From: Bombiscardovia nodaiensis
GTDB lineage: Bacteria; Actinomycetota; Actinomycetes; Actinomycetales; Bifidobacteriaceae
Direction of reading: 5' to 3'
DNA length: 64,000 nt
Assembly: GCA_033127725.1 (NCBI GenBank)
Contig: AP026798.1
Location: 372,001 to 436,000, forward strand
Below the pieces are notes generated by a model that saw nothing but the letters and a program-made list of their open reading frames with translations, had not been told where the DNA came from and did not search any database. Positions 36,761-61,451 of this stretch are shown piece after piece (the first letter of the stretch is position 1; the number at the start of each line of letters is the position of its first letter). The position numbers were made by a program, and so were the translations under genes.

Positions 36761-36831
36761 GCGGGCGTAGCTCAATGGTAGAGCCTCAGTCTTCCAAACT
36801 GATTACGCGGGTTCGATTCCCGTCGCCCGCT
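36761..36831 (+). tRNA. tRNA-Gly (anticodon UCC)
   Basis: The acceptor stem GCGGGCG/CGCCCGC, D-loop AGCTCAATGGTAGAGC, anticodon stem CAGT/ACTG with loop CTTCCAA (anticodon TCC at 36793-36795) and T-arm GCGGG-TTCGATT-CCCGT make a complete 71-nt cloverleaf with discriminator T. CCA is not encoded. It stands 72 bp before cas3. Confidence 0.96.
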
Positions 36832-36903: not shown

Positions 36904-39900
36904 GTGTCTGATTTAGATTCGCTGTTATATCCTCTTTCTTCTCAGGCGGCATCAATATGGGGGAAATCAGATTATGGGAAGAACCAGGAGTGGTTGCCAC
37001 TTGTCCTGCATATGTCGGATTCGCTGGAAGTGGCGGGTAAACTGTGGGATTGTTGGCTGCCGCAGGGCACGCGAGATATTGTTTCCCGTGGGGTGTGTGG
37101 AGACCAGCAGCTGGCGAAGAAGCTGTATCTCTTTCTCGCCGGAGTCCACGATATAGGCAAAGCCACCCCAAATTTTCAGGTTCAGACTTGGGGCTTTCCC
37201 TCTGGTGATGACAGCGGTCTAGCATGGAAACCAGAGCAAGCTGGCTTGCGGATTCGCGCTGAGCTGCGCGGCCAGTCGCACCTGAGTCACCCTATCGCTG
37301 GCCAAGTTATCCTCAACTCTTACTTGGGCCAAACCTTTCAGTGGGAAAGTGCGCTCGCGGATTCATATTCATGTGTTGTGGGAGGTCACCATGGCAAGCC
37401 TCCAGTGGCCAGCAAAGTGAAGGAAGCGGCTGAGGCAAGACTTCCGGAGCTTGGCTGGGACCAACAGGCTGAGGGTAAATGGAGTCAAGTTCAAAATGAG
37501 CTGATTCGCTTTGTGCAAGAGCGTTCAGGCATGGGATCTGCAGAGTTTGCAGCACTTGGCCACACTATGCTCCCACCTATGGCAGAAAGCATACTGACTG
37601 GCTTGGTGATTATGGCTGACTGGATTGCTAGCAATACAGATTTTTTCCCACTACTTGCCCTTTACCCTGAGGAGGGGGAGGAGCGCATTATTGCTAACGG
37701 CCAAGTTCGTTTGGATATGCTCAAGCAAAGGGTCGAGTGCGGATGGGATGAGCTCAATATCACGCCCTCGTGGAGGCAGTCTAAGCAATATAACATCCTC
37801 GCTGCTAGTCCAGATGACGTGTACGGTAGGCGGTTTGACCTTCCTCCGACTGCTACGGTTCGTCCTGTGCAAGCTGCTGCTGTTCGCATTGCTCAAGAAG
37901 TGCCGGATCCGGGCTTGATGATTATAGAGGCACCGATGGGGGAAGGTAAGACTGAGGCGGCTTTGGTAGCGGCGGAAGTACTGGCGACTAGGACAAGCAG
38001 GGGCGGAGTCTGCTTAGCTTTACCTACTATGGCTACAACCGATGCCATGTTCGCTAGAGTTCATTCCTGGCTCAGACATGTTTCTCAAGATTGTAGTGAT
38101 GAGCGTGAGAGTTTGTATTTAGCCCATGGCAAGGCCCAACTGAACGATGAGTTTCAAGGGTTGATGGGGCGCTCTGGAGCTCATGGAGCAGCTGGTGTGG
38201 GAATCGACGTGGATAGAGGCGGGCATACTTCTCTCAGTATGGCAGTTGATGAGGCGACTATCGTTGACGAATGGATGCGCGGTCGCAAAAAGGGCGTTCT
38301 CGCTAATTTCTTAGTCTGCACTGTTGACCAAGTGTTGATGGGTGCGCTAGATATGAAGCATGTGGCCCTCCGGCAGTTGGCTTTAGCTAACAAAGTTGTT
38401 CTTATTGACGAATGTCACGCATACGATGTCTATATGCAGCAGTACCTCCTGCGCCTTTTAGAATGGTTGGCTGCCTTCGATGTGCCTGTGGTTTTGCTTT
38501 CTGCCACACTTCCCCAGGAGTTGAGAGAACAGTTGACTCAGGCCTATGTTAAGGGAAGACAGGCGGAGCTTAGCCCTCCTCGACCATATATGTCTGCGGT
38601 CCCGCAGCGGCATAGGAGGCGCCGAAAGCCCGTAGAGAGTGCGAATGGGGAAGGAGTAACACAGGAGGACAGGGGCCACAAGCAGATGAAACAAGGCAGT
38701 CAAGCCTACCCCCTCATCACCTATACCAGCGGGCAGCAAGTGGGCCAAGAGGATGTACCTGCTTCGGGACGCAAATCTGAAGTTGAAACATACTGTATGG
38801 GAGACGACGACAGCTCTCTGCTGACTTTGCTTCAAGACGTTCTGGTTGAAGGGGGCTGTGTTGGTCTTATTTGCAATACCGTGGGCCGAGCCCAGCATGC
38901 TGCAGAAGTGCTGACTGATGCATTTGGCTCTGATGTCGTTACTTTAACTCATTCACGTTTTATTGATGTTGACAGGATGAGTAATGAGACGGTGCTGCGC
39001 TCGCAGCTTGGTCCTGATGCCACGGCGACCAACTGTCAACGGCCCAAGAAGGCGATTGTCGTCGGCACACAGGTTCTAGAGCAGTCTTTAGATATTGACT
39101 TCGATCTCTTGATTACAGATGTAGCTCCGACCGATTTGGTCATGCAACGTCTGGGGCGTGTCCACAGACACCAGCGAGGTGTAGAGGAGTGTGACCGCCC
39201 AAGACAGCTGCGCAAGGTGCGCTGTTATATACGCGGTATTGAGTCTTGGTCGGATACTGGACCTGTGTTTGCGCGGGGAATAGAGAGCGTCTACTTTCGG
39301 GCGACACTGTTGGAGTTTCTGGCGGTCAGCGGTTTGACTATGGAAAATGCTTCGGCACATTTCCGTCTGCCGTACGATATTGCCTCTTGCGTACGTAAGG
39401 CATATTCGTCTGAGATTGTGGAAGATATCCCCCAGGCTTGGATGGAAGACTATAAGACTGCTGGAGACAAGCGTGCGGCAGAAATGTGCAGCAAAATCAG
39501 TCGGGCGGAATGCCACCTCTTGCATTCGGTCTCAGATATGTGCCAGCAGGGGCAGACTCTGGTGAACTGGTTCGCTCAACCTCTGGAGATTACTGGCAAG
39601 GATGAGGATAAGGGGCAGCGAGCGGTCCGCGATACCCAAGAGAGTGTCGAAGTCATTCTCTTGGCTAACGCTGAGGACGGTCAGGCTCGTCTCTTGCCTT
39701 GGGTGGGTTCGGATGCCTACCATATTCAGCCCGGAGAGCTCGTGGAGACGCAGAGCGTACCTTCTATTGAGCTTGCAAAGCTGGTCGCCGAGTGTACGGT
39801 GCGCCTTCCGCTAATTATGGGACAGGGCCTGGCGCTCGACAAACTGATTGAGGAGCTGGAGGATCACTGCGGCGATAGGACTGCTGCTTGGCAGAAGTCG

Positions 39901-40032
39901 GATTGGCTGTCTGGCCAGTTGGTGCTGTTTTTAGATCAGGAATCGCAGCATGTTTGGAGCACAGAGATTCACGGGTACAAGCTGTCGTATTCTCAAGATA
40001 CAGGGCTTCTTGCTGAAAGGCTGGCGGAATAA
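36904..40032 (+). CDS. cas3: CRISPR-associated helicase/nuclease Cas3 (type I-E)
   Basis: Cas3 is recruited by Cascade to unwind and degrade target DNA. The 1042-aa protein has an N-terminal HD nuclease domain: LHMSDSLEVAGKLWD supplies the first histidine, AGVHDIGKATPNFQ the HD pair, and VGGHHGKPP a further metal ligand. The superfamily 2 helicase follows, with Walker A in MGEGKTEAALVAAEVLA (K349), the DExH box DECHAYD (D502), LLSATLP (motif III) and QRLGRVHRHQRG (motif VI). GTG at 36904 has AGGAGG 8 nt upstream. It is separated from casA by 236 bp that carry CRISPR-repeat-like hairpins. A 5-bp inverted repeat, CATAG/CTATG, lies at 36873-36887 upstream of the ribosome-binding site. Confidence 0.96.
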   Translation: MSDLDSLLYPLSSQAASIWGKSDYGKNQEWLPLVLHMSDSLEVAGKLWDCWLPQGTRDIVSRGVCGDQQLAKKLYLFLAGVHDIGKATPNFQVQTWGFPSGDDSGLAWKPEQAGLRIRAELRGQSHLSHPIAGQVILNSYLGQTFQWESALADSYSCVVGGHHGKPPVASKVKEAAEARLPELGWDQQAEGKWSQVQNELIRFVQERSGMGSAEFAALGHTMLPPMAESILTGLVIMADWIASNTDFFPLLALYPEEGEERIIANGQVRLDMLKQRVECGWDELNITPSWRQSKQYNILAASPDDVYGRRFDLPPTATVRPVQAAAVRIAQEVPDPGLMIIEAPMGEGKTEAALVAAEVLATRTSRGGVCLALPTMATTDAMFARVHSWLRHVSQDCSDERESLYLAHGKAQLNDEFQGLMGRSGAHGAAGVGIDVDRGGHTSLSMAVDEATIVDEWMRGRKKGVLANFLVCTVDQVLMGALDMKHVALRQLALANKVVLIDECHAYDVYMQQYLLRLLEWLAAFDVPVVLLSATLPQELREQLTQAYVKGRQAELSPPRPYMSAVPQRHRRRRKPVESANGEGVTQEDRGHKQMKQGSQAYPLITYTSGQQVGQEDVPASGRKSEVETYCMGDDDSSLLTLLQDVLVEGGCVGLICNTVGRAQHAAEVLTDAFGSDVVTLTHSRFIDVDRMSNETVLRSQLGPDATATNCQRPKKAIVVGTQVLEQSLDIDFDLLITDVAPTDLVMQRLGRVHRHQRGVEECDRPRQLRKVRCYIRGIESWSDTGPVFARGIESVYFRATLLEFLAVSGLTMENASAHFRLPYDIASCVRKAYSSEIVEDIPQAWMEDYKTAGDKRAAEMCSKISRAECHLLHSVSDMCQQGQTLVNWFAQPLEITGKDEDKGQRAVRDTQESVEVILLANAEDGQARLLPWVGSDAYHIQPGELVETQSVPSIELAKLVAECTVRLPLIMGQGLALDKLIEELEDHCGDRTAAWQKSDWLSGQLVLFLDQESQHVWSTEIHGYKLSYSQDTGLLAERLAE

Positions 40033-40126
40033 ACTGACCTTACACAACTATCGATTAGCGGAAATCGGGCTGGTGTCACTGCTTGAAGAAGTGTGGTATG
40101 ATAATTCACATAATCCAACTAGTTAG

Positions 40127-40227
40127 ATTATCCCCTTTAGAGAGGGGGATGCTCCGTAGTCAGATTACGGAAGAGAGTTTGTTCCCCGCTCCTGCGGGGC
40201 GGTTGAGATACGGTGGGGATGCCGTAT
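40127..40227 (+). ncRNA. CRISPR-repeat-like mini-array between cas3 and casA
   Basis: Two sequences in the cas3-casA gap resemble the array repeat. The first (about 40127-40156) keeps TCCCC, a 9-nt loop, then GGGGATG and CTCC, so its 3' handle ATGCTCCG is close to the real ATGATCCC. The second (40179-40207) begins GTTCCCCGC and has the same CCCCGC/GCGGGG stem as the true repeat with loop TCCT, but a changed 3' part. They are 22 nt apart (true spacers are 32-33 nt). A third hairpin ATACGG/CCGTAT (40208-40227) follows directly. This could be a crRNA-like RNA bound by Cas6e, or a Cas6e cleavage site within the cas mRNA. It is not a normal array. Function is inferred. Confidence 0.55.
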
Positions 40228-40268
40228 TTAGGGTTTGGACAATAAAGCAAAAGACTAGGGAGTCTAAT

Positions 40269-41957
40269 ATGAAAGAGCTTCAGAGTTCCTTCAATTTAGT
40301 GGATGAGCCGTGGATTTCTGTAGTGTATACAGATGGGTCTGCGAAGCCTGTCTCGTTGACTACCTTATTTGAGCAGGCCTCGCAAATACGCGAAATCGCA
40401 GGGGATATTCCTCAGCAAACGTTGCCGATTCTGCGACTTGCTTTAGCTATTTTGTACCGGGCCTACTACCGAGATGTGGAGCAGATGTCAGACCAGGAAT
40501 GGCGCGAAGATTGGGCACAAACCTGGGCTGATGGCAAGTTCGATATGGCTGATATTCGGGAATATCTGCAAGAATTTCATGACCGCTTTAATCTCCTAGA
40601 CCCACAGTTTCCCTTCTTCCAGACCCCAGGCCTGGAATACACGACTGATAAGGATTACGATCCTGTAAGTGAGATCATCGCTGATGTGCCCAAACCAGAA
40701 AAGTACTTATTCTCACTGAGGGCCAAGGGCACTGTCCATGATTTGTCGCTTGCAGAGGCGGCGCGTTGGCTTGTTTTTCTCCAGTCCTACGATACGGCAG
40801 GTATTAAAACTCCGGTTGCAGGTAATACCCATGTCAATAAGGGCAAGGTTTATCCGCCTAAAGGTGCAGTAGGCACTGGCTGGCTTGGGGCTTTGGGTGG
40901 GGTCTACCTAGAAGGACAGAACCTTTTCCAAACCCTGATGCTCAACTGGTGCTTGCTCGACAGCAGCGGCAGGGGAGATGGTCTTCCTCTCGCGGGCAGG
41001 CAGAGCGATAAGCCTGTTTGGGAGCAGCAGCCAGCAGGCACTGATATGCGGATGTGCGACGGTGCCCAAGGTTCAGCTTCGCTCTTCACCTGGCAAGATC
41101 GCAGGATCCGATTGATAGCCAATGAGGACCAGAATCGTGTGACCGGTATGGTTATCTGCTATGGTGACAGCCTCACAGCGGTCAACAAGCATGATTTTGA
41201 GAGTATGACGGCCTGGAGAGAAAACGAAAAACTCGGTAAAGAGCTAGGTCTGCCTCAGGCCCCCCTCCTACCGCGCTCCTTAGACTCCAGCAAAGCCTTG
41301 TGGAGAGGTCTAGAGCCGCTCTTGAAATACTCAACAGACATGGGCAGAGATTTACGCCCAGGAGTAATTGAGTGGATTGAATCTGTTCAGAATCTCACCG
41401 CTTCAAGCTTGAGTCCTTTGAACTCTGTGACGATCCATGCACAAGGTATGTCGTACGGGACGCAGAACAGCGTGTTCGAAGATGCGATGGATGATCGGGT
41501 CGATATTCATGCTTTCTTGCTCCGTCATGATGCGCCTGCTGTAGCCACAATCCTCGATATAGTGCAGGTCACCGATAAAGCTGTATATGAGTTATCGAGG
41601 TTTGTACACCTAGTAGAACAGACTGCCGGAGATAAAAGCAAAGACGCCAAGGCTAAGGCAACCAGTACTGATGTTAAAGAGCGAGCATATGACGAGTTGG
41701 ATCCGCTCTTCCGTCGGCGTATTGCAGATTTTGCCCCGACTCAGGACCCGGGCGTGTATGGACAAACCTGGAAAAACCAGATTCATAGATTGTTGCTGGA
41801 TATAGGTAGAGAATATCTCCTTGACTCTTCAGTTAGTCCTTTCACTATGCGGGATGCAGGAACAATGAAACACATTTCTGCCGCTGATAGTGAGGTGAAA
41901 TATGCTAGTGCGCTTAACAAGTTACTAGGCGAATTGAATGCAGAAAAGCAACAATAG
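40269..41957 (+). CDS. casA: Type I-E Cascade large subunit Cas8e (Cse1/CasA)
   Basis: Cas8e recognises the PAM and helps recruit Cas3. The protein of 562 aa begins FNLVDEPWISVVYTDGSAKP, the usual Cse1 opening. YPPKGAVGTGWLGALGGVYL near residue 200 and the C-terminal helical bundle fit the family. The ATG at 40269 is preferred because GGGAG lies 7 nt upstream and the Cse1 opening follows immediately; an ATG at 40083 would run through the repeat-like hairpins and add 62 unrelated residues. casB follows after 38 bp. Confidence 0.95.
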   Translation: MKELQSSFNLVDEPWISVVYTDGSAKPVSLTTLFEQASQIREIAGDIPQQTLPILRLALAILYRAYYRDVEQMSDQEWREDWAQTWADGKFDMADIREYLQEFHDRFNLLDPQFPFFQTPGLEYTTDKDYDPVSEIIADVPKPEKYLFSLRAKGTVHDLSLAEAARWLVFLQSYDTAGIKTPVAGNTHVNKGKVYPPKGAVGTGWLGALGGVYLEGQNLFQTLMLNWCLLDSSGRGDGLPLAGRQSDKPVWEQQPAGTDMRMCDGAQGSASLFTWQDRRIRLIANEDQNRVTGMVICYGDSLTAVNKHDFESMTAWRENEKLGKELGLPQAPLLPRSLDSSKALWRGLEPLLKYSTDMGRDLRPGVIEWIESVQNLTASSLSPLNSVTIHAQGMSYGTQNSVFEDAMDDRVDIHAFLLRHDAPAVATILDIVQVTDKAVYELSRFVHLVEQTAGDKSKDAKAKATSTDVKERAYDELDPLFRRRIADFAPTQDPGVYGQTWKNQIHRLLLDIGREYLLDSSVSPFTMRDAGTMKHISAADSEVKYASALNKLLGELNAEKQQ

Positions 41958-41995: not shown

Positions 41996-42691
41996 ATGTG
42001 TAAAAGCATATCGCATGTGAACGCCTTGATGGTTGGCGCATACGCGAATTCAATAATAAAAGATATTCAGAAAAACTATACTGGGAAAAATCCCCGTGCT
42101 AAAGCTGATGCTAGGGCAACTCTTGCGCGCCTAAGAAGAAGCGGCACGTCTGCATATTCTCCGTGGATGGATATTGGCCAGCAGATGTTCAGCAACTGGC
42201 CTGAAGATAAGCTCGGAGATCCTCGAGAAGACTCTTATGCGATTCGAGCAATACAAGCTACTCTGCAGCTGTATGCTTTCCACCAGCAATCGCAGTCGAG
42301 TCCTATGGCTGCTGTTATTGATAAGGGAAGTGCAGAAGAGCAGCGGCAGAAATATCGATATGCGACGTTCGGCGCTGCCTGTCGGAGAGTTAATTTAGAG
42401 CTTGATTCGTCTCAGGGGATTCGCAGGCGGCTAGAATCTGTATATGCTGCCAGCGACTTTGACGGAATAGTTAGAAATATTCGTGCTCTGATTGCTTTGA
42501 TTAAATCTGGTAAGCAAAGCGATGTTGATAAGCAAATTGACTACGGTCAACTTGGACTCGATCTTTTTCTGATGCAGTTTGAAGATGATCGTAAAAAAGT
42601 CTTCTTTAGGTGGGGAAGAGACTATTTTTACCTTCCTACAGGTAGCAAGTCTCTCACCTCAAAGCCCTCTCAGAACAAAGACGCGAAGTAA
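41996..42691 (+). CDS. casB: Type I-E Cascade small subunit Cas11/Cse2 (CasB)
   Basis: Cse2 dimers stabilise the crRNA-target duplex in Cascade. The 231-aa protein shows ADARATLARLRRSG near residue 37 and the YATFGAACRRVNLELDSS segment near residue 122, both typical of Cse2, and a mainly helical composition. AAGGGAAG precedes the ATG. The local base composition is A+T-richer than in the neighbouring cas genes. casC follows after 34 bp. Confidence 0.93.
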   Translation: MCKSISHVNALMVGAYANSIIKDIQKNYTGKNPRAKADARATLARLRRSGTSAYSPWMDIGQQMFSNWPEDKLGDPREDSYAIRAIQATLQLYAFHQQSQSSPMAAVIDKGSAEEQRQKYRYATFGAACRRVNLELDSSQGIRRRLESVYAASDFDGIVRNIRALIALIKSGKQSDVDKQIDYGQLGLDLFLMQFEDDRKKVFFRWGRDYFYLPTGSKSLTSKPSQNKDAK

Positions 42692-42725
42692 TTAGATTTC
42701 ACCATTGCATTGAAAGGTAAGTACT

Positions 42726-43862
42726 ATGTTTGTTGATTTATATGCCATCCAAGCCGTTCCTCCGAGCAATATCAACCGTGACGATACCGGCAGTCCAAAG
42801 ACCGCATATTACGGGGGCACTTTGCGCTCCCGCGTGTCTAGCCAGGCCTGGAAGAAAGCTATCCGGCATGAATTCGAGCACACTGTGCCCAAGAATGAGA
42901 TTGGATATCGAACGAAGGTGGCTGTTTCTCTCATTCAGAGGGAGATTGACGCTGAGCGTCCAGATCTGGTTGAGCAGTCTGAAGAGCTGGCAACTGCAGC
43001 TATTGAAGCATCAGGTCTAAAAGTTGAGGCATCCACACGAGCTGGAGAGCAAAGTGGTGCTCCAGTTACGCAATACCTCATTTTTATTGGGGCTCGTGAA
43101 ATACAAGGCCTGGCTGCTGTGGCTATCAGCTGGGCCGACCAGGGCGAAAATCTGAAGAAGCCTTCGGCGGCTATGAAGAAAGAAGTGCTCTCTGTCTTCC
43201 ATGGTCCGAAGGCGCTCGACATTGCCCTCTTCGGCCGTATGCTTGCAGATATCCCTCAGCTTAACGAAGATGCATCAGCGCAGGTGGCCCACGCTATCTC
43301 AGTCGATAAGGTGGCTCAAGAGTACGATTACTTTACTGCTGTGGACGACTGTGCGCAGGATGACAATGCTGGTGCTGCGATGATCGACACGGTAGGATTC
43401 AACTCTTCTACACTCTATCGCTATGCCACTGTAAATGTTGATTCATTGGCTGAGCAGCTGGGCGATGCTGATGCTGCAGCAAAGGGTCTGGTGGCTTTTA
43501 CAGAGGCGTTCATTCGTTCGATGCCAACCGGGAAGCAGAATAGCTTTGCGAATAGGACCCTGCCTTCGACAGTAGTTATCGCCTTGCGCGACGAACAACC
43601 AGTCAACGTGGTAGACGCCTTCCAAGATGCTATTCGTCCCGAAGAAGGGGAGTCAGTAGCGCGTAAGGCGGCACAGGCGTTAGGTAGAAAGCTGAAAGAA
43701 GTAGGGCAAGCCTATGATGCTGTGCCCATCAAGGCCTGGAATATTGTGGCTGACAAGCCCGTTGAGCAGCTCAATGCTATCAGTAAGACGGTCGACTTGG
43801 CGCAGGCTAAGGCAGAGCTTGGTGAGACGGTCCTGGCTTCCCTAACTAAGGGGCAAGAGTGA
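42726..43862 (+). CDS. casC: Type I-E Cascade backbone subunit Cas7e (CasC)
   Basis: Six copies of Cas7e form the crRNA-binding backbone of Cascade. The 378-aa protein opens with the family pattern LYAIQAVPPSNINRDDTGSP and continues with KTAYYGGTLRSRVSSQAWKK, which matches the RNA-binding start of Cas7e. TGKQNSFANRTLPSTVVIAL near residue 260 is also characteristic. GAAAGGTAAG precedes the ATG. The stop codon overlaps the casD start. Confidence 0.96.
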   Translation: MFVDLYAIQAVPPSNINRDDTGSPKTAYYGGTLRSRVSSQAWKKAIRHEFEHTVPKNEIGYRTKVAVSLIQREIDAERPDLVEQSEELATAAIEASGLKVEASTRAGEQSGAPVTQYLIFIGAREIQGLAAVAISWADQGENLKKPSAAMKKEVLSVFHGPKALDIALFGRMLADIPQLNEDASAQVAHAISVDKVAQEYDYFTAVDDCAQDDNAGAAMIDTVGFNSSTLYRYATVNVDSLAEQLGDADAAAKGLVAFTEAFIRSMPTGKQNSFANRTLPSTVVIALRDEQPVNVVDAFQDAIRPEEGESVARKAAQALGRKLKEVGQAYDAVPIKAWNIVADKPVEQLNAISKTVDLAQAKAELGETVLASLTKGQE

Positions 43863-44578
43863 GCGTCCTGCTCCTGCGGCTTGCTGGACCCCTGCAAGCC
43901 TGGGGGGATTCCTCCAGGTTTACCCGGCGCAACACCCGCAAGGAGCCAACGAAAAGCGGCGTTATAGGACTCTTGGCCTCGGCCCAAGGCCGCAGCCGAG
44001 AGGACGATATTGAGGACCTAGTTAAGTTGGAGTACGGTGTGCGGACCGAACAGCCAGGGCGCATTATTCGTGATTTTCAAACTGAGCGGCGAGAAGACAC
44101 TAATACGATAATGCCTTTGAGTAACCGTTACTATCTGTCTGATGCGGTATTTCTGGTTGCACTGAGCGCTTCTGAAGAGGTGCTCACATCTTTAGAAGCG
44201 GCGCTTCGGATGCCTAAGTGGCCGCTTTACTTGGGCAGGCGGGCTTGCCCAGCTACGTTGCCCATAACCTTGGGCCTTCGCCAGGAGTACGAGACTGTGC
44301 GGCAAGCCTTGTCAAGTGAACCTTGGCAGGCCGATCCTTGGTATCGCAAGCGGTATCAGCCGCTACATCTGGCAGTTGCCTGCGATGGTCAAGAGGGTGA
44401 GGCGTTTGAAAGCCAGACGGATATTCCGCTGACGTTTAGCATTGAACATCGCCGTTACGCCAGCAGGCCTGTATTCCACTTCGAAGTGGCGAATCCGAGC
44501 GTCTCTCTAGGTGATGCAGAACAATCTGAGCCAAGTGCTTTCAGCGATGCTGATGGCTTTGACCCCATGAGTTTTTAG
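43859..44578 (+). CDS. casD: Type I-E Cascade subunit Cas5e (CasD)
   Basis: Cas5e caps the 5' handle of the crRNA. The 239-aa protein begins VLLLRLAGPLQAWGDSSRF, the glycine-containing RAMP opening of Cas5e, followed by RNTRKEPTKSGVIGLLASAQ. GRRACPATLPI in the middle is typical too. The GTG start overlaps the casC stop codon (GTGA), indicating translational coupling. casE follows 8 bp after the stop. Confidence 0.95.
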   Translation: MSVLLLRLAGPLQAWGDSSRFTRRNTRKEPTKSGVIGLLASAQGRSREDDIEDLVKLEYGVRTEQPGRIIRDFQTERREDTNTIMPLSNRYYLSDAVFLVALSASEEVLTSLEAALRMPKWPLYLGRRACPATLPITLGLRQEYETVRQALSSEPWQADPWYRKRYQPLHLAVACDGQEGEAFESQTDIPLTFSIEHRRYASRPVFHFEVANPSVSLGDAEQSEPSAFSDADGFDPMSF

Positions 44579-44586
44579 GAGGAGAC

Positions 44587-45288
44587 ATGTATATTTCCAG
44601 GATTCCCCTGAATGCAGCCAGATATGAGGCTCGTCAGCTCCTTTCTTCTCCCTACAAATTGCACTCCGCTGTGGAACATTCATTTCCTCCAGAGTCGGGG
44701 GTAACACCGCATGAGGGTAGAATTTTGTGGCGGGTAGATGTAACGCAGGAGCGTAAGGCTGTCTGGCTCTATGTTGTAAGTCCAATGAAGCCAGATTTTA
44801 CACATATTATCGAGCAAGCTGGCTGGCCCCTCTACCAGGACTGGGAATGCAAAGATTACACTCCTTTGCTCACTTCGTTGGCCAAAGGGCAACATTGGCG
44901 TTTCCGTTTACGGGCGAACCCAGTCCACAAGGTTTCGTCTAAGCATAAGGACAGCAAAGAAGATTCTCTTGCAGGAAGTATACAAGGGCATGTGACAGTT
45001 GCTCAACAGGAGCAATGGCTTCTAACGCGAGCAGAGCAGCATGGTTTCCGAGTCCTCGCTGATCAAGATGTTCCACAGCTAGCGGTCACTCAAAGGCAGA
45101 AGCAGCGCTTCCTGCGCCAAGGTAAGACTGTCACTCTTAACACGGCCCAGTTCGATGGAGGACTGGAAATATGCGATGTGGCCGCCTTTAAGAATGCTCT
45201 ATGCAACGGAATTGGTAGGGCGAAGGGGTTTGGATGTGGGCTGCTTACTATTAGCCAAGTTTTGAACTGCAATGCAGATGTGGCGTGA
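44587..45288 (+). CDS. casE: crRNA-processing endoribonuclease Cas6e (CasE)
   Basis: Cas6e cuts pre-crRNA at the base of the repeat stem and stays bound to the 3' hairpin. The 233-aa protein has the RAMP fold with Y23 and H26 in SSPYKLHSAVEHSFP, positions that match the catalytic Tyr/His described for Cas6e. The glycine-rich loop GIGRAKGFGCGLLT is at the C-terminus. AGGAGG lies 5-7 nt before the ATG. The gene ends in a GTGA overlap with cas1. The CRISPR repeat stem, and the identical stem upstream of casA, are its expected ligands. Confidence 0.95.
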   Translation: MYISRIPLNAARYEARQLLSSPYKLHSAVEHSFPPESGVTPHEGRILWRVDVTQERKAVWLYVVSPMKPDFTHIIEQAGWPLYQDWECKDYTPLLTSLAKGQHWRFRLRANPVHKVSSKHKDSKEDSLAGSIQGHVTVAQQEQWLLTRAEQHGFRVLADQDVPQLAVTQRQKQRFLRQGKTVTLNTAQFDGGLEICDVAAFKNALCNGIGRAKGFGCGLLTISQVLNCNADVA

Positions 45289-46355
45289 ATGTGAGCGGAG
45301 AAAAACATACAGACCCAGCGTCCAGCTCAGTAAGCCAAGCCTCTGGAGAAGCCTTAAACGGTAGATCCAAAGTCGCTGAGGAAGGTGAGGGCAGTGCTCC
45401 TCACCGGCAAGCACGGGCAAAATCATTGGGAACACCGCCTCCCGAATTAGGTGAGCTTGTCAGAGTTGAGGATCGACTGTCTTTTCTCTACTTTGAGCAT
45501 TGCATTGTCAAGCGGGACGACAATGCAATTACCGTGACCGATAGCGAGGGCACAATTCACGTACCTGCGGCGAATCTGAGCGTGCTTATGCTTGGGCCAG
45601 GCACGGATGTAACTCATCAAGCGATGACGGTAATCGGAGAGAATGGTGCAACCGTCATTTGGGTAGGGGAGCGGGGTGTGCGAATGTATGCGTTCGGTAA
45701 GCCCCTTACTCACTCTTCTGCCCTCTTGCAGAGGCAGGCTGCAATGGTGTCGAATACTCGGCTCAGACTCTCTGTGGCGAGAAAAATGTACCAGATGCGC
45801 TTCGCCAATGAAGATGTCAACCGGTTGACCATGCAGCAGCTGCGTGGCAGAGAGGGGGCGCGTGTCCGTCAGGTCTACCGTGAGTACTCGCATAAGACTG
45901 GGGTTGAGTGGGATAAGCGAACATACGATCATGAGAATTTCGATGACGGAAGCGAAATTAATAAAGCTCTTTCCGCAGCTCATACCTGCTTATACGGTAT
46001 TGCGCACTCGGTTATTGTGGCGCTTGGCTGTTCTCCAGGTTTGGGGTTCGTACATGTAGGCCATGAGCGTTCCTTTGTCTACGACATTGCGGACTTGTAC
46101 AAGGCAGAATTGTCCATTCCAGTGGCGTTTGAAACAGCAGCGCAGGAACCAGAGGATATTGGATCGGCTGTTCGCCACAATATGCGAGATGCGGTTTACG
46201 ATTTAACACTGATGTCGCGTATGACAAAGGATATCAAAGACCTCTTAGGCGAAGATGCTGAAACCGGTGATGATGTAGACGCTGATCATGTGGGTCTGTG
46301 GGACGACAAACTTGGCGAAGTCGCTGCCGGCAGGTCGTACGCGGCCGAAGAATAA
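45285..46355 (+). CDS. cas1: CRISPR adaptation integrase Cas1 (type I-E)
   Basis: Cas1, with Cas2, integrates new spacers at the leader end of the array. The conserved core starts at about residue 55 (RVEDRLSFLYFEHCIVKRDD). The active-site region reads SAAHTCLYGIAHSVIVALG and GFVHVGHERSFVYDIADLYK. The His and Asp of the usual E-H-D set are present, while the position of the E. coli Glu141 appears to be His241. I believe this also occurs in other actinobacterial I-E Cas1 proteins. An N-terminal extension of about 50 Ser/Ala/Glu-rich residues precedes the core. The GTG start overlaps the casE stop codon; a GTG at 45291 is also possible. The 356-aa length exceeds the usual 300-320. Confidence 0.94.
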   Translation: MNVSGEKHTDPASSSVSQASGEALNGRSKVAEEGEGSAPHRQARAKSLGTPPPELGELVRVEDRLSFLYFEHCIVKRDDNAITVTDSEGTIHVPAANLSVLMLGPGTDVTHQAMTVIGENGATVIWVGERGVRMYAFGKPLTHSSALLQRQAAMVSNTRLRLSVARKMYQMRFANEDVNRLTMQQLRGREGARVRQVYREYSHKTGVEWDKRTYDHENFDDGSEINKALSAAHTCLYGIAHSVIVALGCSPGLGFVHVGHERSFVYDIADLYKAELSIPVAFETAAQEPEDIGSAVRHNMRDAVYDLTLMSRMTKDIKDLLGEDAETGDDVDADHVGLWDDKLGEVAAGRSYAAEE

Positions 46356-46372
46356 ATGAGGGGAATAATGAC

Positions 46373-46735
46373 ATGGTTGTGATTGTGCTCACGGCTTGTC
46401 CCGTTGGTTTGCGGGGAGATCTCACCAGATGGTTACTTGAAATTTCGCCTGGTGTGTTTGTGGGGCATATCAGTGCTCGGGTTCGGGATCGTCTATGGGA
46501 ACGAGTTTTAGGCTTAGTTCGTGATGGGCGTGCCATTATGGTGTACTCCGCTCGTAATGAGCAGCATCTCGCTTTCAAGGTGCACAGGGCAGACTGGACA
46601 CCGGAAGACCATGAAGGTATCGAGCTTGTTAAGCGTCCGTTCGGAACTGAGAAAGCCTCGGTGGTAGGGCATGCGGAACATGGTTGGAGTAAGGCTAGCA
46701 AGTATAGGAAAGCGCGTAAGTTCGCACGTCGCTAA
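46373..46735 (+). CDS. cas2: CRISPR-associated Cas2 (type I-E)
   Basis: Cas2 is the structural core of the Cas1-Cas2 integrase. The 120-aa protein begins MVVIVLTACPVGLRGDLTRW with LLEISPGVFVGHISARVRD next, the standard Cas2e N-terminus, and has a C-terminal basic tail (SKASKYRKARKFARR). GAGGGG is 9 nt before the ATG at 46373. It is 17 bp after cas1 and is the last cas gene before the array leader. Confidence 0.95.
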   Translation: MVVIVLTACPVGLRGDLTRWLLEISPGVFVGHISARVRDRLWERVLGLVRDGRAIMVYSARNEQHLAFKVHRADWTPEDHEGIELVKRPFGTEKASVVGHAEHGWSKASKYRKARKFARR

Positions 46736-46903: not shown

Positions 46904-49739
46904 GTGTTCCCCGCACCCGCGGGGATGATCCTCAGCCAAATACCCGCGAGCATCATAGCAATGGGTGTTCCCCGCACCCGCGGGGATGATCCCATGACCG
47001 CGTGCTTCTCTCGCCCACCGGCTTGGTGTTCCCCGCACCCGCGGGGATGATCCCACTGCAAATGCCTTGACTTTTATGAGGTCGGGGTGTTCCCCGCACC
47101 CGCGGGGATGATCCCTGACAATCAATAGCCTGCAAGGAAAATTCGGCGTGTTCCCCGCACCCGCGGGGATGATCCCCCAGAAACACTGTATACCGTACAA
47201 ACAGGAGAGTGTTCCCCGCACCCGCGGGGATGATCCCTAGGGGAGAAGCTGCTAGCAGTGACATGGATGGTGTTCCCCGCACCCGCGGGGATGATCCCGA
47301 CGTCCCTTACCGGACTTCTGCTCCACAACTGTGTTCCCCGCACCCGCGGGGATGATCCCATCAGAATGCCTGCAAGTCAACTTCATCAGCAGTGTTCCCC
47401 GCACCCGCGGGGATGATCCCTTTCGTGGGCTTCATGGCCGCCAAATACTTCGGTGTTCCCCGCACCCGCGGGGATGATCCCTCGACTCCGCCTTCTCACG
47501 ACTGCAGGCCTCAGTGTTCCCCGCACCCGCGGGGATGATCCTTGCTTATTGAGCGCCCATGTTTTGACTGGTACGTGTTCCCCGCACCCGCGGGGATGAT
47601 CCCTGATTATCAGCGTCGAAGGTAAACGTTGTAGGGTGTTCCCCGCACCCGCGGGGATGATCCCTCTGGCCAGAAATTAAATCCACGGTAAATGCGGTGT
47701 TCCCCGCACCCGCGGGGATGATCCCCAGCTCCCAGATGTCCCGCACATCGTTAGCAAGTGTTCCCCGCACCCGCGGGGATGATCCCCTGAGCAGCACCAA
47801 AATGCGCGAAGGGCTCGGGTGTTCCCCGCACCCGCGGGGATGATCCCCCGCAGCCTAATGGCGACTACAGCATAAGCCTGTGTTCCCCGCACCCGCGGGG
47901 ATGATCCACCCAGAGGCCACGGGCCACACGGATTGCTCTGGGTGTTCCCCGCACCCGCGGGGATGATCCCGACACGCCGAATATCAGTACACACTCGACT
48001 ACGTGTTCCCCGCACCCGCGGGGATGATCCCATTAACGCCAGTCACGTCCATGTACGCTCGCCGTGTTCCCCGCACCCGCGGGGATGATCCCCTTGACCG
48101 TAGGCCCTGATATGCAAGTACTTGGTGTTCCCCGCACCCGCGGGGATGATCCCCTACGGTTCCTACCGGGCGAGGTTACGTTATTGTGTTCCCCGCACCC
48201 GCGGGGATGATCCCCGTATCGACCCCAAGGGCAATATTGCACCCGAGTGTTCCCCGCACCCGCGGGGATGATCCCTTAACGCCAAAGCTATTAGTGACCC
48301 ATGGCCTGTGTTCCCCGCACCCGCGGGGATGATCCCTTACAAACGCAGTTATCAGCATTGACCCAGCGGTGTTCCCCGCACCCGCGGGGATGATCCCCCG
48401 ATGGTGTTTGACTGGTTGTCGGCGGTGCCGTGTTCCCCGCACCCGCGGGGATGATCCCTAATGATGAGGAAGATGATATGAAAGCAATTAGTGTTCCCCG
48501 CACCCGCGGGGATGATCCCTGCACGCTATTGCCACAATGACCGACGGGCACGTGTTCCCCGCACCCGCGGGGATGATCCTGACATTGCAGCAGCACAGCA
48601 GTCGACAGATTAGTGTTCCCCGCACCCGCGGGGATGATCCCGGGTCGCTGAGCAGACCGGGGCCAGGATTATTGTGTTCCCCGCACCCGCGGGGATGATC
48701 CCCAGGTCGAAATCTTCTTGGGTGAGCTGCGGGTGTGTTCCCCGCACCCGCAGGGATGATCCCGAAGAGCATGTGCAAATTCGTTGTTGTCGTCAGTGTT
48801 CCCCGCACCCGCGGGGATGATCCCTAGTTGAACAGTATGTCCGTGACGCTAGCCAAGTGTTCCCCGCACCCGCGGGGATGATCCCTCGTCCGAGGAAGGG
48901 GTCTGTCGGCCTTGGAAGTGTTCCCCGCACCCGCGGGGATGATCCATTATCCGCCAACAGCAGACCCACAGCTACTGCGTGTTCCCCGCACCCGCGGGGA
49001 TGATCCTGTCAGCCTGGCGTATTTCCCCGCAAGCTCATGGTGTTCCCCGCACCCGCGGGGATGATCCCCATGAAAGCATTTGCACGGAAAGACCAAGTTG
49101 GTGTTCCCCGCACCCGCGGGGATGATCCCTTGCTGATGAAGAACGCTTGTCCCTTGCCCGTGTGTTCCCCGCACCCGCGGGGATGATCCCGTTCTGGGCG
49201 ATTATTGTTCGATTTGGTCGAAGTGTTCCCCGCACCCGCGGGGATGATCCCTGAAGCAGCGGACCACCTGATAGCCATCGGCGGTGTTCCCCGCACCCGC
49301 GGGGATGATCCCCAATGGAAAGGGTCTAAGCAATCCTGGGGACGGTGTTCCCCGCACCCGCGGGGATGATCCCGAGCCCTCGATACCTTTTATGAGACCC
49401 TGGATGTGTTCCCCGCACCCGCGGGGATGATCCTTGGTCCTCACCTGCGGTCGGCTATCCAGAGGGGTGTTCCCCGCACCCGCGGGGATGATCCCTCATA
49501 TGGTGTCGAAATAGCCGCTGTCGGGGAGTGTTCCCCGCACCCGCGGGGATGATCCCCGAGACCGAGCAGCCCTAGCCTGCTGCTGAGCGTGTTCCCCGCA
49601 CCCGCGGGGATGATCCCTAAAACTAAAAAACCGATCTATAAGCGCATCGGTGTTCCCCGCACCCGCGGGGATGACCCCGTGTGTATGTCGGAGCGAGCCG
49701 CTTTCAGCGCGTGTTCCCCGCACCCGCGGGGATGACCCT
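46904..49739 (+). CRISPR. Type I-E CRISPR array, 47 repeats and 46 spacers
   Basis: The 28-29-bp repeat begins GTGTTCCCCGC, has the stem CCCCGC/GCGGGG with loop ACCC, and ends GATGATCC plus a variable base (C in 39 of 47, T in 6, A in 2). The period is 61 bp throughout except for one 62-bp unit (47880-47941). Spacers are therefore 32 bp, one being 33 bp. One internal repeat (48735) has a G-to-A change in the stem. The last two repeats (49650, 49711) have GATGACC instead of GATGATC, marking the leader-distal end. All 46 spacers look different from each other. By eye I saw no spacer matching another part of this window. Confidence 0.98.
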
Positions 49740-49824
49740 ACAACTTGCAAAGCCATGTTTATCTCCATCTGGTGTTTTTTCCTCCCTCATTCGCGGCATC
49801 TAAATCCCGATAGCCATGCTGGGC

Positions 49825-49852
49825 GTGTTCTCTGCCTATGCAGGGACTGGTT
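49825..49852 (+). repeat. Degenerate relic repeat beyond the array
   Basis: The sequence starting GTGTTCTCTGCCTATGCAGG resembles the array repeat and keeps its stem through compensating changes (CTCTGC pairs with GCAGGG). It lies 114 bp after the start of the last good repeat. It is probably an old terminal repeat left after spacer loss. Confidence 0.5.
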
Positions 49853-60746: not shown

Positions 60747-61451
60747 ATGGATCAGCTCAAACTCATCGTCTCGGGATACGACCACTATGAGGGCATTGAT
60801 GTGAATCCCTCTCAAATAGTGGCGCAAACGCTTGCCCAAGCAGGGCTCCCGCCGGCCGATAGCAGCCAGGAGCAGGACGACCCTCTTGAGGGCTTAGACC
60901 TGAACATTCGGGCAGTTTCGCTGCCTATATCGTTCGGCAAGGCTTGGCCTATCCTGCACGAGGCGATTGAAGATTTTCAGCCTAATATTGTGATTTCAAC
61001 GGGCTTGAAGCGTACGGCTCGAGGGGTGGCGATGGAGCGGTGCGCAGTGAATTTGAAAGATGCCAACCAGGCGGCGCAGTCATCGGAAGATCGGCCCGCT
61101 ACCCACCGGGAGCCTATCGACCCGCAGGGCCCTGCTGCTTATTGGACACGCTTGCCCTTGCGCGCTATTTTGCAAGCTTTTGCTCACCACAATATTGCAG
61201 CTACGTTAAGTTCGGATGCGGGCACGTATGTGTGCAATGCTGTGTTTTATTCGTTGCTCAATTGGACTACGGACCACCCCAATGTGTTGGCGGGGTTTGT
61301 TAGTCTGCCGCCGGTGGTGGAGGCTAAGGCTAATAGTACCGAGAACCACGGCCTGCCGATAGCCCAGCAAATTCAAGCGGGAGAGGATGTTGTGCGGGAG
61401 GCGGTGCGCTACTATCGGCGTCCATCTTCGGGCGACATGCTCATTGCGTAA
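60747..61451 (+). CDS. Pyrrolidone-carboxylate peptidase homologue without the catalytic histidine
   Basis: The protein (234 aa) matches the C15 peptidase fold: VSGYDHYEGIDVNPSQIVAQ at the N-terminus (usually TGFxPFG), AMERCAVNLKDA with E97, PAAYWTRLPLRAI, and DAGTYVCNAVFYSLL with the nucleophile position C163. In active enzymes the catalytic His lies in GFIHxP. Here the corresponding text is GFVSLPPV, with S186 in its place. Activity on pyroglutamyl peptides is therefore doubtful. The family assignment is firm, but the function is not. There is no obvious operon partner. Confidence 0.85.
   Translation: MDQLKLIVSGYDHYEGIDVNPSQIVAQTLAQAGLPPADSSQEQDDPLEGLDLNIRAVSLPISFGKAWPILHEAIEDFQPNIVISTGLKRTARGVAMERCAVNLKDANQAAQSSEDRPATHREPIDPQGPAAYWTRLPLRAILQAFAHHNIAATLSSDAGTYVCNAVFYSLLNWTTDHPNVLAGFVSLPPVVEAKANSTENHGLPIAQQIQAGEDVVREAVRYYRRPSSGDMLIA

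Follow-up and report, generated by a model that had tools for sequence, protein, structure and literature searches.

The question raised by this locus is why sequences resembling CRISPR repeats should stand inside a cas operon, outside the array itself. The window, by which we mean the whole stretch of 64,000 nucleotides of Bombiscardovia nodaiensis DNA analysed here, carries an operon with a complete type I-E gene set and an array (Table 1). The 236 nt between the cas3 stop codon at 40032 and the casA ATG at 40269 hold, in this order, a promoter-like site, a hairpin with a handle, a 22 nt spacer, a hairpin with the genuine repeat stem and a third hairpin. A sequence-only reading of this DNA had offered two options, a crRNA-like RNA that guides Cascade to a cas promoter, or a site at which Cas6e cuts the cas messenger. 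Because a partial match to the spacer stands next to a PAM at the promoter predicted for the Cascade genes, the mini-array is likely to encode a guide RNA that would turn these genes down; we consider it very probable that this mini-CRISPR yields a CreR-type guide by which Cascade would repress its own operon.

Table 1. Features of the cas operon and of the cas3–casA gap, in window positions
Feature	Position	Strand	Remarks
cas3 (helicase/nuclease)	36904–40032	+	NCBIfam cas3_core and cas3_HD
Predicted promoter, casA and mini-array	40073–40102	+	GTGTCA-18-TATGAT, TG before −10; 9/12 consensus
Guide target (protospacer)	40102–40121	−	nt 1 at 40121; orientation as in L005
Alternative target	40117–40130	+	PAM AAC 40117–40119, seed TAGTTAGATTA 40120–40130, mismatch at 5 only
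PAM AAC (GTT on +)	40122–40124	−	adjoins minus-strand target
First degenerate repeat (psiR1)	40128–40156	+	hairpin plus 5′ handle ATGCTCCG at 40149–40156
Predicted mature guide RNA	40149–40199	+	51 nt; would comprise handle, spacer and 3′ hairpin if Cas6e cuts at both stem bases
Spacer (guide)	40157–40178	+	22 nt, begins TAGTCAGATTACGG
Second degenerate repeat (psiR2)	40179–40199	+	genuine stem, handle lost, CGGTTGAG next
Third hairpin	40206–40229	+	10 bp; z −4.5; 0/200 shuffles equally stable
casA (cse1), first Cascade gene	40269–41957	+	TIGR02547; homologue matches begin at 40269
casB, casC, casD	41996–44578	+	
cas6e, presumed processing enzyme	44587–45288	+	TIGR01907
cas1e, cas2e	45285–46735	+	
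CRISPR array	46904–49775	+	repeat GTGTTCCCCGCACCCGCGGGGATGATCC(C), 61-nt period

In a mature type I-E crRNA the 5′ handle comes from one repeat and the 3′ hairpin from the next. The two degenerate repeats of the gap each retain only the half that a putative guide RNA of this kind would need. The handle of psiR1, ATGCTCCG, compares with ATGATCCC in the array (the 3′ end of psiR1 reads GGGGGATGCTCCG, its array counterpart GGGGATGATCCC), and the psiR1 stem is altered. The stem of psiR2 is that of the array with a different loop (CCCCGC at 40184–40189, loop TCCT, GCGGGG at 40194–40199); psiR2 retains this stem and the bases upstream of it (TTGTTCCCCGC..GCGGGG), and where the handle would follow it has CGGTTGAG. 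In the 2.29-Mb genome TTCCCCGCNNNNGCGGGG occurs 47 times, 46 of them in the array and one in the cas3–casA gap. With repeats that differ from those of the array in loop, stem and handle, and with a spacer of 22 nt, not ∼32 nt, the element is not a canonical array; it is a mini-CRISPR of degenerate repeats that lies outside the array and is linked to the cas operon. The description given by the sequence-only reading, namely one hairpin with the exact array stem CCCCGC/GCGGGG and another loop (40184–40199), a second with GGGGATG and a near-identical 5′ handle, 22 nt between them and a third hairpin, holds at the positions of Table 1.

The handle motif GG[AG]TGN[CT]CC was found at four sites of the 64-kb window outside the array: psiR1, 61279 (minus strand), 1430 and 8091. 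At 61279 it is followed by CCGTAGTCC, which resembles the start of the guide; this candidate was rejected, as it lies inside an ORF of the other strand. The segment 40109–40270 folds more stably than 200 of 200 shuffles (z −3.4), and the psiR1 and psiR2 hairpins, taken singly, are each equalled by 6 of 200. When psiR1 is folded alone its pairing runs three bases into the handle, past the expected cut site, which counts against processing. The third hairpin, between the mini-array and the start of casA, is not a hairpin in the window's nearest relative (L005, CasA 76% identical), though CGGTGGGG is conserved there. At the far end of the main array (49660–49850) handles are altered (GATGACCC), and degenerate repeat-like stretches lie past the last clear repeat. 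Directly 5′ of cas3 there is a tRNA gene (Rfam tRNA, 36761–36831), the sole match of the Rfam search, which thus revealed no known riboswitch. The PAM of the array was not derivable from its spacers, the phage search having matched two enterobacterial phage records at ∼69% identity, presumably via the repeats.

The site at 40073–40102 is the only promoter-like site in 40020–40290; since shuffles average 0.4 such sites, it could have arisen by chance. Its −10 element and the downstream ACATAATCCAA are conserved in L005, and the inferred start of casA transcription lies near 40109. No terminator-like site was found in the gap. The sequence-only reading had suggested scanning the 22 nt segment against the cas3 and casA promoters, and the scan finds, next to a PAM, a seed match that falls at the predicted casA promoter and is interrupted at position 5. 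Found with positions 6, 12 and 18 unscored, the minus-strand target matches the guide at 10 of the first 13 positions (1–4, 7–11 and 13, with mismatches at 5, 6 and 12) and spans the end of the −10 element and the presumed transcription start. The plus-strand target, whose nt 1 is at 40120, matches at 1–4 and 6–11 and is found with or without scoring of positions 6, 12 and 18. Common to both is the palindrome AACTAGTT (40117–40124).

AAN-PAM sites scoring at least 7 in the 64-kb window all lie in the gap (two with positions 6, 12 and 18 unscored, one with all scored). Genome-wide, the PAM-plus-seed pattern AANTAGTNNGATTA occurs at two sites only, both here and one per strand, where we estimate about one to be expected by chance; read backwards, the pattern is absent from the genome. 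When positions 6, 12 and 18 were left unscored, an equally good site in the gap was obtained with 8 of 5000 shuffled spacers and with 9 of 5000 20-mers drawn from the window; when all positions were scored, the numbers were 2 and 3 of 5000. The guide is thus partly complementary to the predicted cas promoter beside a PAM, with a true seed mismatch at position 5, and the putative match is weaker than in most relatives. With a 22 nt spacer and a match that thins after position 13, the pairing would be too short for interference.

Genomes were sampled at one per species. The family search covered 189 genomes, 50 of them with a CasA match (30 loci, and 20 more), and the order search 396 genomes, 56 with a match, from which 30 loci were taken; a CasA alignment scan of named genomes gave 41 loci, of which 40 were used (L094 is partial), a single-sequence CasA scan of the same genomes giving no match. 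These searches provided 120 casA-upstream regions, 94 of them distinct. A strict handle-plus-hairpin motif detected psiR1 in 11 of the 94, the window included, and in all 11 the best PAM-blind target was a minus-strand site, in 10 of them beside AAN (AGC in L005). When L007, L010 and L027 were added by eye, giving 14 loci, own-locus scores with 6/12/18 unscored averaged 11.9 as compared with 4.8 across loci, no cross-locus score out of 180 reached 11, and the PAM was AAN in 12 of 14 (in L007 the best PAM-blind site is another, beside TGG). With all positions scored the means were 11.3 and 4.8, two of 180 cross-locus scores were at least 11, and AAN was found in 13 of 14.

A handle-and-PAM scan with a score cut, below which the window's own pair falls, matched 15 of the 94 regions, as compared with 0 of 600 in the cross-locus control and 3 of 222 when control windows were taken inside the same loci. 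The matches comprise 13 of the 20 regions whose cas3–casA gap measures 130 nt or more, together with 2 of the 72 (out of 94) in which it is shorter. Among the long-gap regions that the scan left unmatched (L004, L005, L007, L011, L043, L070 and L093), L004, L005, L007 and L070 have a pair in a separate pair table and L011 has one further upstream, where the locus is numbered L056; in L043 and L093 no guide–target pair was found.

The set was enlarged to 181 regions (148 distinct), including 20 longer stretches upstream of cas3; one of the 148, L056_x, was put in because of its earlier match. Pairs had to show an exact seed (positions 1–5, 7 and 8), AAN and a handle, and were called strong if at least three of positions 9, 10, 11 and 13 matched as well. 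There were 39 pairs in 36 loci, and 33 strong pairs in 32 loci, against 9 in 1480 cross-locus pairings and one in reversed regions. Two of the 33 look false by eye (one of two pairs in L130, and L139; neither has a psiR2). Six further pairs have the seed but are not strong; five of them seem to be due to chance and one, L138, is borderline. The window is absent from the strong pairs because of its mismatch at position 5; the seed is likewise mismatched in L016 and L070, and AGC in L005 is a non-consensus PAM. A PAM-blind count on the enlarged set was discarded, as genuine arrays in the stretches 5′ of cas3 had presumably overwhelmed it. In the strong pairs, where AA was demanded, the PAM was AAC in 24, AAT in five, AAG in three and AAA in one; PAM predictions for bifidobacterial type I-E systems give AAC, and also GAAG (PMC7284854).

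Candidate guide–target pairs thus stand at the same operon in about thirty related species, mostly with other sequences. Relatives had been named by the sequence-only reading as a place to check, and there the pairs are both conserved and covarying. The alignment with the L005 gap illustrates this: the −10 element, ACATAATCCAA, the handle, GATTA and the second stem are largely conserved, and positions 2–3 of both spacer and minus-strand target read AG in the window and GA in L005, having changed together. The L005 seed is perfect outside position 6, with PAM AGC; the window has PAM AAC and the position-5 mismatch. The plus-strand target is not kept in L005.

The mismatches are not spread evenly. 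In the 33 strong pairs a mismatch stands at position 6 in 21 cases and at position 12 in 25, as compared with 7, 2, 2 and 5 at positions 9, 10, 11 and 13, which were used to select strong pairs, whereas 6 and 12 were not. In the 39 pairs chosen by seed, PAM and handle, the counts are 27 and 30 at positions 6 and 12, and 11, 5, 6 and 10 at positions 9, 10, 11 and 13. Cascade-bound DNA is reported to have every sixth crRNA base flipped out (PMC5904413, PMC13122317), and positions 6 and 12, where mismatches pile up in these predicted targets, are the bases that Cascade flips out.

A place between cas3 and casA is kept by the mini-array in distant genera. In the Bifidobacterium asteroides group (L127–L130) the cas3–casA gap is below 130 nt and the mini-array precedes cas3; its target, a plus-strand site beside PAM AAC, follows 54 nt downstream. 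A mini-array and target upstream of cas3, with PAM AAG, were also observed in L142–L144, whose CasA is distant (33–36% identical); the L142 pair appeared only in a looser scan. The order of genome G772, a group of Coriobacteriia that includes the Collinsella and Olsenella genomes of the named set, was searched in 297 genomes, 29 of them with a match. The window's layout, with the target upstream and the guide in the casA leader, was assigned by hand to 18 of the 24 loci of that order in the tree. In this tree of 54 CasA proteins the window and L005 group with other Bifidobacteriaceae, support for these branches not being strong. Three changes are required on the tree to account for the leader layout, which may therefore not share one origin with that of Coriobacteriia. 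A further casA-like match, a partial one, lies elsewhere in the genome of the relative G001 (C1:970898-971782).

In loci with the guide upstream, the −35 hexamer of the best promoter-like site starts with a TT that complements the AA of the PAM in 9 of 12, at a 17 nt spacer from the −10 element (L015 counts among the nine despite a poor −35). TT-hexamers with at least five matches to TTGACA were found at 13 of 32 targets, against 79 of 972 TT sites in the same regions. In an uncontrolled count, overlap with the best nearby promoter-like site was seen for 27 of 32 minus-strand targets. The window differs from the guide-upstream loci in that its target is at the presumed transcription start.

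We propose that transcription from the predicted promoter would run through the mini-array into casABCDE-cas1-cas2, which would place the guide in the 5′ leader of the mRNA. Cas6e would cut at the base of both hairpins and free a guide of ∼51 nt, and Cascade loaded with it would occupy the site at the predicted transcription start, blocking RNA polymerase. The base pairs would be too few to trigger Cas3, and hence the chromosome would stay uncut. Since crRNAs from the array would compete for Cascade, repression would ease whenever Cascade is scarce or blocked. Two features are less expected: the position of the guide, inside the predicted leader of the very mRNA that it would repress, and the −35 box serving as PAM in 9 of 12 relatives with an upstream guide. 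What can be read from the DNA itself is the anatomy, the PAM-adjacent match to a predicted promoter and an arrangement that is conserved while its sequence changes. Of the two options offered at the outset, the crRNA-like RNA that guides Cascade to a cas promoter is the one favoured by the seed match, its conservation and its covariation. Cas6e cutting of the cas mRNA at the hairpins is compatible with such a guide, and would follow if the hairpins are cut.

The rival explanations account for parts of this evidence. A functionless remnant of a decayed CRISPR array might look much like the mini-array, given that its repeats are degenerate and just two in number and that the far end of the main array is also altered. 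Decay would hardly leave each repeat with exactly the half that a guide RNA needs, nor PAM-adjacent matches to promoter regions in many species with mismatches at the sixth and twelfth base, nor a cas3–casA location kept in distant genera, and we regard a remnant as improbable. That the hairpins merely form a Cas6e processing site, separating cas3 from the Cascade messenger, with an incidental spacer match, is very unlikely in our judgement: two repeat-like hairpins in an operon with a cas6e gene fit this role, but cutting is also expected of a guide, and it explains neither the PAM-adjacent matches and their covariation nor why the B. asteroides group has its copies 5′ of cas3. Spacer and target could instead pair in the transcript, as an attenuator or terminator and not through a guide, since 25 of the 33 strong pairs have spacer and target on opposite strands, which would make the two complementary within one transcript, and the gap folds strongly. 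The other 8 of 33 are, however, direct repeats (two of the eight look false by eye; four are from the B. asteroides group); a stem gives no reason to expect AAN beside the target or mismatches at positions 6 and 12; species vary in whether spacer or target comes first; and the gap lacks a terminator-like site. To this inverted repeat we give little credence.

A guide need not act on cas genes. In an addiction module like CreTA it would repress a hidden toxin RNA beside casA, and the anatomy is as in CreA; such an RNA could escape notice by its small size. Yet the predicted promoter under the target leads into casA, the first gene seen after it, and the gap shows no second promoter-like site, though a tiny RNA gene could escape the scan; a toxin here seems highly doubtful to us. 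The stretch might also encode an N-terminal extension of CasA, as the handle ATG at 40149 shares the casA frame and no stop codon intervenes, within an open frame of 40083–41957, and the L005 open frame (610 aa) likewise exceeds its CasA match. Against this, the L005 alignment requires gaps of 2 and 1 nt inside the stretch, conservation tracks the repeats and the −10 element and not codons, and homologue matches begin at 40269. The open frame of 40149–40268 is likely to be due to chance, because that of L005, which also seems open, has compensating indels, and a coding role can practically be dismissed.

A CreR-type guide therefore remains our preferred reading. If it is right, many bifidobacterial and Coriobacteriia type I-E systems meter their own Cascade by a built-in guide, with a bearing on how strongly such systems are expressed and on their use in genome editing. 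The natural guide–target pairs would be an evolutionary record of how Cascade reads DNA, with PAM AAN and the seed kept and positions 6 and 12 drifting, and they give predictions for about thirty species at once. A bolder version, which we offer tentatively and consider somewhat less likely to hold than to fail, is that the Cascade operon carries its own off-switch in its mRNA. Each Cascade transcript would release one guide, directed to the palindromic AACTAGTT on either strand, in a self-metering loop that sets one guide per message against the supply of crRNA; the layout would recur in Coriobacteriia, and in many other bifidobacteria the guide would lie upstream and use the −35 box as PAM, a rule tying promoter to CRISPR recognition.

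Among known systems, the Racr RNA anti-CRISPRs (PMC10651486) are likewise repeat-like elements outside an array; as described there they are solitary repeats in viral genomes, phage or prophage, whereas the window has two repeats within a host cas operon. An ordinary type I-E crRNA of the same array shares the repeat stem and handle type, but has a spacer of ∼32 nt; the spacer of the window's guide has 22 nt, partially matches a target in its own genome and is flanked by repeats outside the array. Closer is CreA of the haloarchaeal type I-B module CreTA, for whose repeats the same split of handle and stem is described (PMC9458426): psiR1 keeps the Cas5-binding handle, psiR2 loses it, and a short seed matches a promoter. 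It differs from the window in that the target promoter there drives a toxin RNA, here casA, and in that the window's repeats form hairpins and the haloarchaeal ones do not. In type I-B, an 11-bp seed match is reported to suffice for CreA repression, and spacers of at most 24 nt to give repression without interference (PMC10989794). In the Escherichia coli type I-E system short, seed-only binding of Cascade is reported to be transcriptionally inert, which counts against a guide in the window; promoter occlusion there is weakened by PAM-distal mismatches, and interference needs more than 18 bp (PMC5904413).

The nearest likeness is CreR itself, described in general terms in PMC12737573 and PMC12948488; according to PMC13131331, CreRs autorepress types I-B, I-E and V-A via partial promoter complementarity. 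The sequence-only reading knew of no such element in bifidobacterial type I-E systems. Our literature search likewise found no paper joining CreR and Bifidobacterium, a search too limited to show absence from print, but the class as such has been reported for type I-E (PMC13131331), and the element most likely belongs to this known kind. It shares with CreR the mini-CRISPR, the guide partly complementary to a cas promoter and the inferred autorepression; it differs in being known from sequence alone and in the place of its guide, inside the predicted leader of the very operon at which it would be aimed.
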